A stretch of DNA of 64,000 nucleotides. Origin: Pseudodesulfovibrio pelocollis. Its GTDB lineage: Bacteria > Desulfobacterota > Desulfovibrionia > Desulfovibrionales > Desulfovibrionaceae. Positions 17,471 to 49,198 of the stretch are shown here, piece by piece. The notes beneath the pieces were generated by a model, which was not told the origin of the DNA, did not search any database, and saw only the letters and a list, made by a program, of their open reading frames with translations. The position numbers were made by a program, and so were the translations under genes. Within the stretch, counting starts at the first letter, position 1. Every line of letters starts with the position of its first letter. Location: contig NZ_JASTWE010000013.1 in the NCBI RefSeq assembly GCF_030282845.1, positions 1-64,000 of the forward strand, in the 5' to 3' direction.

Positions 17471-19189
17471 TCAACCCACACGCACGTCGGCGGCGATGAC
17501 GCCGAGAATCCGGCCGTCCCGGTCGAAGAAAGGGCTGGACACGGTGATGCAGCTCTCGCCCGAGGCGGACGACTCATAGACATCCGAGATGAAGAAGGTC
17601 CGGTTCTCCATGGCCCCGGTGAACCAGGGCCGCGTGGACCACTGCGAGCCAACGGCACCCGCGTCCTCGCCGTAGCCCGTGACCTTGCCGCCCAGGTTGC
17701 TGACCAGCTGGCGCCCCTTTTCGTCCGTGATATAGAGAAGTTCGAGGAAGTCGTTGGCCTTCAGGGCGCGGCGCATGGTGCCTTCCATGCTTGCACGCTC
17801 GCGCGACTGGACATCGCGCGATGCGGCCAGTTCGCCGATGACCTCCTGCACCCTGCCCTTGCCCACCAGCCGGAACATGTCGGTCATGGTGGCCAGATCC
17901 TCCACCCGCTCTGCCAGCACGGTCACGGCCCGGGCCGCCTCGGCCATGGCCTTGCCCGTGGTGGCGGAGATGGTGTGGACCTCGGTGATGGTCCGGGTCA
18001 CGTCCTCGCTGGCTATGGACTGCTGGGACGCGGCCGAGGCAATGGCCCGGATGCGGTCGGCACTGGTGCCCGCGTAGGTCACGATCTCGTCCAGGGCCTC
18101 GCCCGATTCCTGGGCCAGGGCGGCGGCCGCGTCGGTCAGGCCGCCCATTTCCCTGACACCGACCACGGTCTGGCGCACCTGCTCCTGAATGCCCTCGATG
18201 GCCACGCCCACGTCGCGGGTGGCGACCATGGTCTTTTCGGCCAGCTTGCGCACCTCGTCGGCCACCACGGCAAAGCCGCGCCCGGCCTCGCCCGCCCGGG
18301 CCGCCTCGATGGCCGCATTGAGCGCAAGCAGATTGGTCTGGTCGGCAATGTCTGAAATGACGCCCATGATCCGGCCCACGCCCTCGGCCTGGCTGCCCAG
18401 CCCGGACACGCGCTCGGCCAGGGAGCGGGAGTTGTCGGCCACCGAGCGGATGGAGCCCAGGGTGCGCGAGACCACCTCGGCCCCGCCCCGGGCGTATTCC
18501 ATGGCCCGCTCGGCATCGGCGGCGGCAGCATCGGCGTTCATGGCCGTCTCGGTCACCGAGGCGTTCATCTCCTCCATGGCCGAGGCCGCCTCGGAGATAA
18601 AGCGCTGCTGATCGGCCGCGCCCCGGCTGGCCGTGTCCGCCGCCGTGTCGAGGAGCCCCGACTGGTCGCGGATGGCCCGCACCGACACGTCAAGCGACTC
18701 GGCGGCCGAGAGCAGCCCGTGGCAGCGGGCCGCCTCGCCCTGCTCCCGCGCTGCGGCCGCAATGTCCAGGGCGGATTTCGCCTTGGCCGACGCCTCGCGG
18801 GCTACATTTTCGCTCCCTGCGGCCTGCCTCTCTAACTCTCTAGTGAAGCTGACAATTTGGTGCATGGCTCCGGCCATCTTCCCAATATTGTCATTGCCCG
18901 CCCTGGGCAGGACCACCTGCGATCCGCCTGCCGCGATTTTTTGCAGCGAAATTGCCAACTCATTGTATTTTTTTGATGTCATGCGCGAGGCGACAACAGC
19001 GCCGAGCACGGTTCCAAGCACTGCCAGCAACCCGGCACCAACCAGCGCCCAGGTCAGAACGCCCACCCGGGCTGACAGAATTGTCACTTCCCCAGACCCG
19101 GCCAGCGCGGGCACCACCCCGGCAACCACCCCGGCGCACACCGCTGCGGCAGGCAGGCATCTCGCCAAAAACACGGACTTTTCCATCAT
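17471..19189 (-). CDS. Methyl-accepting chemotaxis protein with C-terminal Cache domain
   Basis: A 572-residue chemoreceptor. Two membrane helices at the N terminus (about residues 3-25 and 40-62) are joined by only about 15 residues, so there is almost no periplasmic domain. A coiled-coil region follows, then the signalling hairpin ([20 protein letters not shown], about 341-360). After the receptor core, residues about 468-572 form a Cache/PDC-like domain: [33 protein letters not shown] and [11 protein letters not shown]. This places a normally extracytoplasmic ligand fold in the cytoplasm. GGAG precedes three adjacent ATGs (19192, 19189, 19186), so the exact start is uncertain by a codon or two. 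Confidence 0.9.
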
Positions 19190-19262
19190 CATTTCTCCAC
19201 TTCCCCATTTGAATTTCACTGCAAGCGATGCGCAACCAGAGCAAATGCGGGGCCAAAATGAA

Positions 19263-43665: not shown

Positions 43666-44736
43666 CTAGCCGCAGGCGCGCACGATTTCGGCGGCAATGC
43701 CCTGCAGGGGCAGGACCTTGTGGACGCCGCCGAGCTTGATGGCCTCCTGGGGCATGCCGAAGACCACGCAGGTGGCCTCGTTCTGGGCGATGGTGAATGC
43801 TCCGGCGTCGTAGAGTTCCTTCATGCCCTTGGCCCCGTCGTCGCCCATGCCGGTCATGATGGCGGCCACCACATTGGCCCCGCCGTACTGCGCGCCAGAG
43901 CGGAACAGCACATCCACCGAAGGCCGGTGGCGCGAGACGAGCGGCCCGGCCTTGACTTCCACATAATATCTGGCCCCGCTGCGCTTGAGCAGCATGTGCA
44001 TGTTGCCCGGGGCGATGAGTGCCTGCCCGCGCAGCATGGAGTCGCCGTCCGCGGCCTCCTTGACCGTGATGGCACAGATGGCGTTGAGCCGCTTGGCAAA
44101 GGCGGCCGTGAAATGCTCGGGCATGTGCTGGACGATGGCGATGGGCGGACAGCCCGGAGGCTGCGCCTCTAGGAAGACACGAAGCGCCTCGGTGCCGCCG
44201 GTGGACGCGCCCACCAGGCATATCTTCTCGGTGGTGGTCAGGGCGTGTGGTCGGGTCATGGGCAATACGGCATCCGCGTTGAGTTTGGGGCTGATCTTGA
44301 TGGGCTGGGCCGCTGCGGTGAACTTCCTGGGGCGGGCGATGGCAGCGGCCTTGACCTTGTCGATGAGCAGGATGCTCGATTCTTCCAGAAATTTCTTGGT
44401 GCCCACCCGTGGCTTGGTGATGATCTCCACCGCGCCGTATTCCAGTGCCTTGAGGGCGTTGCTCGTCCCGTGCTCGGCCACTGATGAACAGATGACCACC
44501 GGGATGGGATGCTGCTTCATGAGCTTTTGCAGGAAGGTCAGCCCGTCCATGCGCGGCATCTCGATATCCAGGGTGATGACGTCCGGCACCTCGCTCTTGA
44601 GGCGCTGGGCCGCGACATAGGGATCGACGGCCGTCCCGATGACCTCGATCCCCGGGTCCGAGGAGAGGATTTCCTCCAGGGTCTTGCGGACCACGGCGGA
44701 GTCATCGACTATGAGTACGCGAATCTTCTTTGCCAT
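43666..44736 (-). CDS. cheB: Chemotaxis response regulator protein-glutamate methylesterase CheB
   Basis: CheB removes methyl groups from (and deamidates) chemoreceptors after phosphorylation by CheA. The 356-residue protein has a receiver domain ([14 protein letters not shown], phosphoacceptor Asp in [11 protein letters not shown] near residue 55). A linker follows, then the methylesterase with Ser in [11 protein letters not shown] (about 173-183), His in [11 protein letters not shown], and Asp in [12 protein letters not shown] (about 296-307). A GGGG-rich ribosome site favours the ATG at 44736 over a GTG two codons earlier. It follows cheA after 31 bases. Confidence 0.95.
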
Positions 44737-44767
44737 GCGCACCCCCCTTGAAGTACTCGTTCAATCC

Positions 44768-46996
44768 TCAGCTGGTTTCGGCGATGACCCGCCGGACCAG
44801 ACTCGGAATGTCCAGGATGAGCGCGATGGAGCCATCGCCCTTGATGGTGGCCCCGGAAATGCCCTCAACGTCCTTGTAGACGCGGCTCAAGCTCTTGATG
44901 ACGGTCTGGTGCTCGCCGATGACCGTGTCCACCACGATGCCCACGCGGCTTCCCTCCACGCCGGTGATGACGATCTGCTCGATGGGCGGGTTCTCCCCGT
45001 CCACGGCGAACCATTCGCGCAGATGGATGTAGGGGACGATTTCGCCGCGCAGGTGCAGGATGCGCTGCCTCGAACTTTCGTCCATGTCGCTGGCGGACAG
45101 TTCCACGCACTCCTCCACCAGGGAGAGCGGAATGACGTAGTACTCGTCGCTCACCCGCACCTGTAGGCCGTCGATGATGGCCAGGGTCAGCGGCAGGCGG
45201 ATGGTGATGGACGTGCCCTTGCCCAGGGTGGAGTCGATGTCGATGACGCCGCGCAAGGAGTCGATGGCCCGCTTGACCACGTCCATGCCCACGCCCCGGC
45301 CCGAGACATTGGTGACCGTCTTGGCCGTGGAAAATCCGGGCTCGAAGATGAGCTTGAGCAGATCCTTTTTGGACAACTCGGCGTCGGCCGATATGAGCCC
45401 CCGCTCGATGCCCTTTTCCCTGATGATGGAAGGGTCCATGCCCCGGCCATCGTCATTGATGCGGATGAGCACCTCGCCGCCGGAGTGCTCGGCCGAGAGA
45501 TAGATGGTCCCGTGGGCGGGCTTGCCATGCCTCCGCCGCTCCTCGGGCGGCTCGAGGCCATGGTCGATGCTGTTACGCAGCAGATGGACCAGGGGATCGG
45601 CCAGCCGCTCGATGACGGTCTTGTCCAGCTCGGTGTCCGCGCCCACGGTGGTCAGGACGATCTCCTTGCCGAGGTTGGCCGAAAGATCGCGCACCAGTCG
45701 GCGGAACTTGCTGAAGGAGGTGCCGATGGGCAGCATGCGAATGCCCAGGGTGGAGTCGCGCAGCTCGTCGCTCAGGCGCTCCAGTTCCTCGGCCAGGGCG
45801 GTCATGACCGGATCGCTGCGCTCGCTGACCACCTGGGTGATCTGCGCCTGGACGATGACCAGCTCGCCCACGAGGTCCACGAGATAGTCGAGCTTGTCCG
45901 CCGCCACCCGGATGCTGGAGAGGGCCTCCTGCTGCTTGCGGCTGGCGTCGGCCTCCTTGGCCTCGGCCTGCCGCCGCACGGCCAGCTCCACCTTCTCGGG
46001 CGGCACTTTGCCCTCTTCAGCCAGAATCTGACCCAGGGGTTTTTGCTTCTTGAGGGCTTCCTGAATGTCCGCCTCGGTCACGTCGCCGCACTTGACGAGT
46101 ATCTCTCCGAGCCTGGGCGGTCCCGCGTCCTCGTCCTCGCACAAGCCGTCGTCGTCCGCGACTTGCTGCGACGCGACGGGCTGCGGCCCGGTCGGCTGCG
46201 AAACAACGGGCTCGGCCGGGGGAGCGCCCGTGACCGGCACCGGATCACCCACCTCGTCCAGTATCTCCACGTCGAGGTCGGCATCGGCGAAAAAGAAGAT
46301 GTCGCGCACGCTGTCCGCGTCGATGTCAGTGGTCAGCCCCAGCTCCCAGCCGCCGAACACGGTTTCCACGGGACGGCCGATGATGTGAAACTCTCCGACC
46401 CCGGCCAGCTCCAGAAAGAGCGACTCCAGCCGGGCCTCGTCCGGTTCCTCGCCCGAGCGGGGTGTCAGGCCGATGCGATACAGGCGGCGGCCCGGTGAGG
46501 ATGCTGGCGGGGCGGCCGTCTCCCCGGCATCTCCGTCATCTGCGGCATCTCTGGCCGCGACCGATTCGTCGTCCCCGGCATCCTCATTCACTGCTGTGGC
46601 GGGAGCGGACGGCGACCCGCCCGAGGCCAGGGTCTGGAGGCCGTCGAGGATGGCCCGGCGCTCGACCGGGTCCACGTCATCTCCCTCGGCCGCGCCGAGC
46701 ATGAGTTTGATGTGGTCGCGCGAGCGCAGGGCCAGACCGCACAGTTCGGGCGTCACCTCAAGCAGGTTGTTGCGGACCATGTCAAAGGTGGACTCCACCT
46801 CGTGGGTGAAGGCCGCGATGTCCTCGAACCCGAACATGGACCCCGAACCCTTGATGGTGTGCAGGGCGCGGAAAATCTGGTTGACCATGTCCATGTCGTC
46901 CGGGGATTCCTCAAGCTCGAGCAGCGCCCCCTCCAGTTCGCCCAGGAGGTCGTAGGCCTCTTCCTTGAATATCTGTCTGTTGAGATCGTCGGACAT
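44768..46996 (-). CDS. cheA: Chemotaxis histidine kinase CheA with extra GspE-N-like module
   Basis: CheA is the kinase of the chemosensory array. The 742-residue protein has an Hpt domain with His46 in ALHTIKGSG. A region at about 170-250 resembles the regulator-binding P2 domain. An unusual repeat at about 295-345 reads LGEILVKCGDVTEADIQEAL then LGQILAEEGKVPPEKVELAV. It resembles the N-terminal module of GspE/MshE. The dimerisation helices (about 355-420), the kinase core (LRNSIDHGLEPPEER, NDDGRGMD, GRGVGMDVVK) and a C-terminal CheW-like domain follow. AGGAG is eight bases before the ATG. No CheW or CheY gene is adjacent. Confidence 0.95.
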   Translation of the reverse strand: MSDDLNRQIFKEEAYDLLGELEGALLELEESPDDMDMVNQIFRALHTIKGSGSMFGFEDIAAFTHEVESTFDMVRNNLLEVTPELCGLALRSRDHIKLMLGAAEGDDVDPVERRAILDGLQTLASGGSPSAPATAVNEDAGDDESVAARDAADDGDAGETAAPPASSPGRRLYRIGLTPRSGEEPDEARLESLFLELAGVGEFHIIGRPVETVFGGWELGLTTDIDADSVRDIFFFADADLDVEILDEVGDPVPVTGAPPAEPVVSQPTGPQPVASQQVADDDGLCEDEDAGPPRLGEILVKCGDVTEADIQEALKKQKPLGQILAEEGKVPPEKVELAVRRQAEAKEADASRKQQEALSSIRVAADKLDYLVDLVGELVIVQAQITQVVSERSDPVMTALAEELERLSDELRDSTLGIRMLPIGTSFSKFRRLVRDLSANLGKEIVLTTVGADTELDKTVIERLADPLVHLLRNSIDHGLEPPEERRRHGKPAHGTIYLSAEHSGGEVLIRINDDGRGMDPSIIREKGIERGLISADAELSKKDLLKLIFEPGFSTAKTVTNVSGRGVGMDVVKRAIDSLRGVIDIDSTLGKGTSITIRLPLTLAIIDGLQVRVSDEYYVIPLSLVEECVELSASDMDESSRQRILHLRGEIVPYIHLREWFAVDGENPPIEQIVITGVEGSRVGIVVDTVIGEHQTVIKSLSRVYKDVEGISGATIKGDGSIALILDIPSLVRRVIAETS

Positions 46997-47128: not shown

Positions 47129-49198
47129 TTACGCCTTGCCGTGAAAAACGATTTCCGCCCTGGCCGTGGTCTCGTCAAAGGGCTTCACCTTGATGGAAAC
47201 CTTCTCTCCCTTGAACTCGGCCGCGCCCAGCAGGATGCCCTCGAAATAGTCGAACAGCCCTCGGCTCGACTTGTAGTTCATGAACAGCTCGCCCCCTTTG
47301 TCCTCATAGGTGAAGACCGGCGGCTTGATGCCCGGCTGGTCCTTGGTCAGTTGGGCGTGGACATCGTTCATGCGCAGATAGAATTCCTTGAGGGATTCCT
47401 TCTTGAAATGACGCGGGTACATCTCGTGGAACCGCTTGATGGAGAACTTGCCGAACTCGATGAAGAATGCGCGCACAGTGATTGAGGCCCTGGCGGCCGC
47501 GATCTCGGCCATCTGGAGCATCGCCTGATCCGGATAGCTCTCGGTGGGCAGGAACACGGGGCTGCCCATCTCCTTTTGCACGGCCTCATAAACCTTGTCC
47601 CCGTAAGTCTTGCGGACAAACGCCTGGGCGAGCTTGGGCAGCACGCCCTTCATCCGCCCCTCGGACTCGCGCAGCCGGGTGCCGCTGCCACCGTCGCGGA
47701 ATTCGTTGGACACGTCGAGCAGTTCCTGGGCCAGCCCGGCCAGTTCGCGGGTGGCACTGGCCGCCTGCCCGGCGGCCTCGTCCGCCTCGCCCGCGATCTC
47801 GGCGATCTCCTCGATGCTGCGGCCAATGTCCTCGGACGCGGACGACTGCTGCTCTGCAGCCGTGGCGATCTGGGCCACCCGGCCGACCATGTCGCCGATG
47901 CTTCCCATGATGTGCTGCAGGGCCTCGCCCGCCTGATTGGACAGGCCGGTGCTCTCCCCCACCCGTTTCTCTGTCCGGCGCATGGCCTCGGTGGCGTGGC
48001 GGGAGCGGGACTGAATGGTGCCGATGGCCTCCTCCACCTCCTTGGTGGCGGCCATGGTCTTCTCGGCCAGCTTGCGCACCTCGTCGGCCACCACGGCGAA
48101 ACCGCGACCGGCCTCGCCCGCGCGCGCCGCCTCGATGGCCGCGTTGAGGGCCAAAAGATTGGTCTGGTCCGCGATGTCGTTGATCACGCCGATGATCCGG
48201 CCGATCTCCCCGGCCTGGGCGTCGAGTTCGCCGATCTCGTGGCCGAGCTGCTTGGCGGCCTCGGCCACCTCGTTGATCGCCTCCACGGCGCGTGAAACCA
48301 TGGACGCGCCCTCGGTGGCCGATTCCTGGGCCTTGGCCGCCGCGTCGCTGGTGGCGCTGGCGTTTCTGGCCACCTCGATGACCGTGGCCGTCATCTCCTC
48401 CATGGCCGTGGCTACAGACGAGGTCTGGCTGCGCTGTTTCTGCGCGCCCTGGGCCTGCTCGTCGGCAGCGGCCGAAAGCAATTCCGTGGCCGAGGCCACA
48501 TGCTCGGCCAGGGTGCTGATCTGCTGCCCGGCCTGGGCCATGCGTTCGCGCTGGCGCTCCACCTCGCGCCGCTGCTCCACGGCCTCGGCCAGATCCACGA
48601 AGGAAGTGACCGCGCCAACCATCTCCCCGGCCGCGTCATGCACCGGCGAGACAAAGCATTTCAGGCTGGCCTGCCGACCATCCCACAGCGTGACCTCGGC
48701 GTCCTGGGCCACGGGCTTGCCGGAGCGCAGCGCCTTTTCGGTCAGGGAGTCGCCCTTGCCGTACATGGCCTTCCCCACCGCAAACCCGACCACCTGGGTG
48801 GACGGCTTGCCGAGCATGTCGAGCAGGGCCTTGTTGGCCAGCAGGATGCGCCCCTCGCGATTGCACAGAAGGGCGGGATTGCCCAGGGCCTTGAGGGCGG
48901 TCTCAAGCAGGGCCTTTTCGCCCCGTAGCGTGTCCACGGCCTGATCCAGTCCGGCGAGGGCAGGCGGCAGGGGATCGCTCTGGCCGCCTTCGGCCAGGGA
49001 CCGGGCCAGGGACCCGGCCGCCTCGCTCAGGCGGGCCTCGCTTCGGGCCACGAGCCACGCCGCTGCGGCCACGAGCAGCGCGATCAGCGCCGCGCCGAAA
49101 CCGAAGGCGGCCCAGCCGCCGACAAGGGTGGCCCCGGCGAATACCGCGATGGCCGTACATCCCAAAATCACAATAAAGCCGCGAGGACCGATGAGCAT
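47129..49198 (-). CDS. Methyl-accepting chemotaxis protein with C-terminal H-NOX haem domain
   Basis: A 689-residue receptor. Two membrane helices lie at about residues 5-52 with a very short loop, so it has no large periplasmic sensor. A PAS-like domain follows (about 98-205), then the signalling hairpin ([20 protein letters not shown], about 341-360). The C-terminal H-NOX domain (about 516-683) starts [10 protein letters not shown]. It keeps the haem ligand His614 in NDVHAQLTK, the haem-carboxylate motif YKSSR (Y642, S644, R646) and Tyr651 in FDYF. GGAG at good spacing supports the ATG at 49198 over an upstream TTG. cheA follows after 132 bases. Confidence 0.93.

Follow-up and report, generated by a model that had tools for sequence, protein, structure and literature searches.

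The H-NOX proteins of Nostoc and Shewanella oneidensis are stand-alone proteins of the NO type. The Nostoc protein is described in this way in PMC7356049, which also describes a hydrogen-bond triad of Trp9, Asn74 and Tyr140 in Cs H-NOX. One review states that the O2-binding H-NOX domains of obligate anaerobes need Tyr140 and occur as fusions to membrane MCPs (PMC8738867), and another describes H-NOX as fused to C-terminal effectors (PMC8196705). The Tt/Cs (Caldanaerobacter) H-NOX also comes from an anaerobe and is joined to a methyl-accepting domain, and the O2-sensor role of Ct/Tt H-NOX is described as presumed and still undemonstrated (PMC9814294). An equivalent of Tyr140 is insufficient for O2 binding, because full-length sGC with a similar Tyr is reported not to bind O2 (PMC9592903), and because the Cb and Cs H-NOX domains, described as sharing the residues closest to the ligand, have O2 KD values about 1000-fold apart (53 μM versus 44 nM; PMC7356049). 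Published views of the O2-binding H-NOX pocket depend heavily on a single thermophile protein and its Trp/Asn/Tyr triad (PMC7356049).

Another known system is DcrH of Desulfovibrio vulgaris. Like the receptor reported here, it is a sulfate-reducer MCP with its sensor after the MCP domain, in its case one that binds O2 (PMC9388753). DcrH is described as having a di-iron haemerythrin, a HAMP domain and a periplasmic region (PMC9388753), whereas the present receptor has a haem H-NOX and a PAS domain. How a sensor located after the MCP hairpin controls CheA is described as an open question for DcrH (PMC9388753, PMC13401364), and the family of C-terminal H-NOX receptors raises this question as well. 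A term search of the main text of the latter source, a 2026 review of aerotaxis, returned neither H-NOX nor HNOX (PMC13401364). Our literature search, which took in few subscription papers and no patents, listed no paper on C-terminal H-NOX domains in Desulfovibrio receptors. In patents, a D. desulfuricans H-NOX is reportedly given as residues 728-899, which would put it at the C terminus; the domain order is therefore probably already known to some.

The literature already has a class of Tyr-bearing, MCP-fused, O2-binding H-NOX domains from obligate anaerobes; the locus reported here has the reverse domain order and other partners for the Tyr. What is new is a family rule behind the changes at Trp9 and Asn74, together with the joint decay of the exceptions to it. 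We think that this membrane-anchored receptor of an anaerobic sulfate reducer probably reads cytoplasmic O2 through the haem of its C-terminal H-NOX domain.

A chemoreceptor with a C-terminal H-NOX domain

The window, which is the whole stretch of 64,000 nucleotides of Pseudodesulfovibrio pelocollis DNA that was analysed, carries the receptor gene on its minus strand, with the following parts.

47129..49198 (-): whole gene of the 2TM-PAS-MCP-H-NOX chemoreceptor, 689 aa plus stop (ORF and Pfam)
49034..49186 (-): two predicted membrane helices, about residues 5-55 (hydropathy and full-length model, with helices at 5-26 and 29-70)
48578..48892 (-): PAS domain, residues 103-207 (Pfam PAS_4, 46.7 bits; BvgS PAS is the best solved relative, E 6.2e-07)
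47795..48349 (-): MCP signalling domain, residues 284-468 (Pfam PF00015, 162 bits; genome search match at the same place)
47132..47653 (-): H-NOX (HNOB) domain, residues 516-689 (Pfam PF07700, domain model and H-NOX structure matches)

The gene starts with an ATG at 49198, with a GGAG located 8 bases upstream, and ends with a stop codon at 47129-47131. An earlier note on this DNA had placed the gene correctly at 47129-49198 and left the strand, which is minus, unstated. The note had also described an H-NOX domain after the MCP hairpin and a PAS domain, and both were borne out by the Pfam order of PAS_4, MCPsignal and HNOB. The HNOB profile matched residues 517-671 over its full length (1-163 of 163) at 122.5 bits, compared to a curated cut-off of 25.5, and the MCPsignal profile PF00015 was covered from 1 to 171 of 172. 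The H-NOX domain thus comes after the MCP domain rather than before a C-terminal effector. Pfam, hydropathy and the full-length model all indicate a fusion of H-NOX to a membrane MCP, and the last two leave no room for a periplasmic domain between the helices. The full-length model had a pTM of only 0.36 and, therefore, we infer how the domains are placed in the receptor. A role of the PAS domain as an FAD or haem sensor was set aside; the only clear match in the sequence search was the PAS domain of BvgS.

Fold and haem pocket

The best solved relatives of the H-NOX domain by sequence were the Tt/Cs chains (E about 2e-15). Identical residues number 46 of 156 aligned with Tt H-NOX and 39 of 154 with Nostoc H-NOX, which is similar in fold but has Met at position 140. 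A model of the domain (42 sequences; haem is absent from the model) had a pLDDT of 94 and a pTM of 0.89, and Foldseek ranked a Tt/Cs entry first (E 1.6e-13). The model has the H-NOX fold, as seen in its superposition on 1u4h_A (Z 21.4, rmsd 2.2 over 172 residues) and on 2o09_A (Z 23.1, rmsd 1.6 over 171 residues). VIA-align gave Z values of 20.2-22.5 for Tt/Cs, 22.2-23.2 for Nostoc and 19.8-22.8 for Shewanella oneidensis H-NOX, the last of which is likened to the window domain by fold alone. Rows within 1 Z unit count as tied, so the best values for Tt (22.5) and Nostoc (23.2) are a tie and the fold does not separate O2-binding from NO-type H-NOX.

Alignment to solved H-NOX proteins, a check suggested in the earlier note, assigned the pocket residues as follows.

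47357..47359 (-): His614, predicted proximal haem ligand, equivalent to Tt His102
47261..47275 (-): YxSxR motif, Tyr642-Arg646
47246..47248 (-): Tyr651, predicted distal hydrogen-bond donor to O2, equivalent to Tt Tyr140
47441..47443 (-): Ser586, at the position of Tt Asn74
47627..47629 (-): Ala524, at the position of Tt Trp9

His614, Tyr642, Ser644, Arg646 and Tyr651 were found in the checked translation exactly where the note had put them. The first four provide the proximal His and YxSxR motif by which H-NOX proteins are recognized. Tyr651 provides the distal Tyr at position 140 that marks the O2-binding H-NOX domains of obligate anaerobes, and it is equated with Tt Tyr140 because FDYF in the query aligns with YDYF in Tt. 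The fold, haem His, YxSxR motif and Tyr140 are common to the window domain and Tt/Cs H-NOX (PDB 1u4h). Unlike Tt/Cs, the window H-NOX is C-terminal, the protein has a PAS domain before the MCP domain, and the Trp9/Asn74/Tyr140 triad is replaced by Ala524, Ser586 and Tyr651. The absence of both Tt partners of the Tyr counts against O2 as the ligand sensed, as do model Z values that are no nearer to Tt than to Nostoc.

H-NOX domains in related genomes

H-NOX matches were found in 37 of 60 genomes sampled from the genus and order, in 12 of 395 sampled from the phylum and, with 98 matches, in 97 of 288 genomes of the family, with the window's own genome counted in each set. All but one of the family matches (97/98) were in frames of at least 332 aa; the other, in G642, was in a frame of 222 aa. 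A scan of named genomes gave 41 H-NOX loci. The window's genome has one H-NOX and 18 MCP matches. One relative, G031, has two H-NOX receptors (L002 and L134), of which L002 is diverged, with 48% identity to the window domain.

A first count gave 76 distinct receptor-type domains, and weaker matches were then added before a recount. The final pocket count reduced 151 loci to 111 distinct domains, of which 7 are stand-alone and 104 were taken as receptor-type; many of the rows are near relatives and the counts are not independent events. L175 and L176 end before position 140, leaving 102 of the 104 readable there, and L176 is in a 147-aa frame with a presumed MCP fusion. Several other receptor-type rows are at contig ends or in broken frames, yet they follow an MCP helix end.

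Position 140 is Tyr in 100 and Phe in 2 of the 102 readable receptor-type domains, with the window protein included. Among all 104, position 74 is Thr in 90, Ser in 13 and Ala in 1, and never Asn, while position 9 is Met in 64, Ala in 17, Thr in 16, Val, Tyr and Ile in 2 each and Leu in 1, and never Trp. Of the 104, 103 retain the haem His, and all 102 domains that reach the YxSxR motif have it. The changed Trp9 and Asn74 positions pointed out in the earlier note were confirmed as Ala524 and Ser586, but they are not private to this protein, a view that the 104-domain count rules out. Given Thr or Ser at position 74 in 103 of 104 domains and no Trp at position 9, the two changes follow the rule of the C-terminal family, which is Tyr with Thr/Ser74, and are not an oddity of the window protein.

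Both exceptions at position 140 have other damage. The Phe row L052 has the sole Ala74 and a lost or degraded PGIKPP loop, and its sister L022 retains Tyr and Thr. The L052 sequence is identical to L174 from G017, which is the lowest-scoring untruncated match of the family set. In the other Phe row, L172, the haem His is changed to Tyr and the loop is also degraded. Thus, where the haem pocket is intact the Tyr140 equivalent hardly varies, and it is lost only alongside other pocket damage; this amounts to two events rather than a statistic, and could reflect general decay. The nearly fixed Thr or Ser at position 74, and the occurrence of the single Ala where the Tyr is lost, suggest that a hydroxyl partner has been retained.

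These residues also bear on whether the domain binds haem and O2 at all. The loss of the haem His in L172 means that decay does happen in the C-terminal family, and the window H-NOX could, by extension, be a structural relic without haem. We consider this very improbable, as the window protein has the haem His, the YxSxR motif and the conserved Pro, and the first two are kept across the family in the numbers given above. Another explanation is that O2 is bound weakly, or that autoxidation is fast, without Trp9 and Asn74, which would make the receptor a sensor of redox or haem state. The complete lack of Trp at position 9 and of Asn at position 74 in the 104 domains would agree with this, as would the 53 μM KD for O2 reported for the Tyr-bearing Cb H-NOX (PMC7356049). 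The retention of Thr or Ser at position 74, in which the lone Ala goes with loss of the Tyr, argues the other way, and we find this explanation unlikely. The roughly 100 distinct natural domains with the Tyr but with both partners swapped are a ready test of what determines O2 affinity and autoxidation.

Comparison with stand-alone and N-terminal H-NOX

None of the 7 stand-alone H-NOX proteins of the same phylum has Tyr at position 140, where Leu, Met or Val is found instead, and their residue at position 74 is Trp, Leu, Val or Cys. H-NOX proteins from a Sinorhizobium and a Comamonadaceae plasmid are also without Tyr140. The Tyr at this position in 100 of 102 receptor-type domains, compared to 0 of 7 stand-alone domains, is not due to chance. 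A Fisher test of Tyr against architecture gave p about 1e-12, a value obtained on related sequences and not usable as a probability. These counts, with the alignment of Tyr651 to Tt Tyr140, support in part the proposal of an oxygen-sensing H-NOX in the earlier note; O2 binding itself is something we infer from the sequence.

The receptor could instead be mainly an NO sensor, since NO binds all H-NOX proteins studied and the Tyr would only slow or tune ligands. NO, CO and O2 all bind Ct/Tt H-NOX (PMC9814294), the title of PDB entry 1xbn, which is a Tt chain, names a bacterial nitric oxide sensor, and the Tyr alone is described as no assurance of O2 binding (PMC9592903). Against this stand the Leu, Met or Val in 7 of 7 stand-alone proteins, the retention of the Tyr save in the two rows with decayed pockets, and the same-strand neighbours of the receptor gene, which are cheA and cheB and not a sensor kinase or cyclase gene. 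We regard a mainly NO-sensing role as rather doubtful and favour the sensing of O2.

The receptor of Acetoanaerobium noterae (L131) is like the window receptor in its MCP fusion and in keeping Tyr140 and YxSxR. In contrast, its H-NOX is N-terminal, followed by membrane helices and then the MCP domain, and it keeps Trp9 and Asn74. The clostridial N-terminal class consists of two sequences here, Tt and Acetoanaerobium, both with Trp/Asn/Tyr, and two scans of viral contigs for further N-terminal H-NOX receptors found no relative. A tree of 68 rows, thinned from the first count, groups 56 C-terminal rows (98/92) and groups Tt with Acetoanaerobium (100/99). The branch parting stand-alone from MCP-fused rows is weak (86/57), and the tree program warns of long branches meeting there. 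A single origin of Tyr140 would be compatible with this tree.

Chemotaxis neighbours and coupling to the kinase

Two chemotaxis genes, identified by profile searches, are on the same strand as the receptor.

44768..46996 (-): CheA kinase, directly downstream of the receptor, with an MshEN-like motif at residues ~295-343
43666..44742 (-): CheB methylesterase, 25 bases after cheA

Among the 41 named loci, cheA is directly behind the H-NOX receptor in 10, with cheB as well in 8 of these, and it is about 3 kb from the receptor in 6 more; some of the remaining 25 have little flanking sequence. Synteny ties the receptor to a downstream CheA only in the Pseudodesulfovibrio-like group. The distance from the hairpin tip motif to the start of H-NOX is 171-176 residues in 71 distinct proteins and exactly 173 in 44 of them. 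Such a short and fixed joint would suit a haem domain that acts mechanically and directly on the kinase-control helix.

If the receptor senses O2, its H-NOX haem would take O2 and probably NO and CO as well. Tyr651 would hydrogen-bond the haem-bound O2, presumably positioned by Ser586, or Thr in relatives, rather than by Asn74 and Trp9. On ligand binding, H-NOX could then move with respect to the MCP C-helix end, to which it is attached by a joint of almost constant length, and this movement may alter how active the neighbouring CheA is. The cells would probably respond by moving away from oxygen or by keeping within a narrow range of it.

The motif at residues ~295-343 of CheA is an MshEN-like c-di-GMP motif that scored 35.8 bits with NCBIfam NF053729, just below the cut-off of 38. 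By a strict pattern, an MshEN-like insert was found in 6 of 15 CheA proteins examined (L032, L035, L036, L037, L038 and L052). MshEN together with CheA is already mentioned in PMC5013675. The motif could let c-di-GMP act on CheA beside the gas receptor.

Other C-terminal sensors in the same genome

The window's genome also encodes a DcrH-like MCP with a C-terminal haemerythrin (L114 and L127 on contig C26, which lie in one 778-aa frame). The joint to the sensor in this protein is a long low-complexity stretch. The MCP hairpin of the H-NOX receptor is 45-49% identical to those of 8 comparable MCPs of its own genome, out of 17 other MCP loci of which 9 gave no protein by the tip pattern. A special kinship with the haemerythrin MCP was not found in this comparison, as its 46% identity is within the range of the 8 MCPs.

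Tentatively, the Desulfovibrionales receptors may be a separate lineage of O2-sensing H-NOX, with a distal network of Tyr140 and Thr/Ser74 in place of Asn74/Trp9, in which the sensor, attached by a joint of fixed length, drives the kinase from the C-terminal side of the MCP hairpin. Similar MCP chassis in the same cells might then be tailed by either H-NOX or haemerythrin.

A second MCP in the window, at 17471-19219 (-), has another C-terminal sensor arrangement, with a dCache-like domain after the MCP domain (a partial match of 46.3 bits, with a cut-off of 45). Lastly, a contig labelled Planctomycetaceae (L034) bears a Pseudodesulfovibrio-type receptor with a neighbouring cheA and is probably misbinned.
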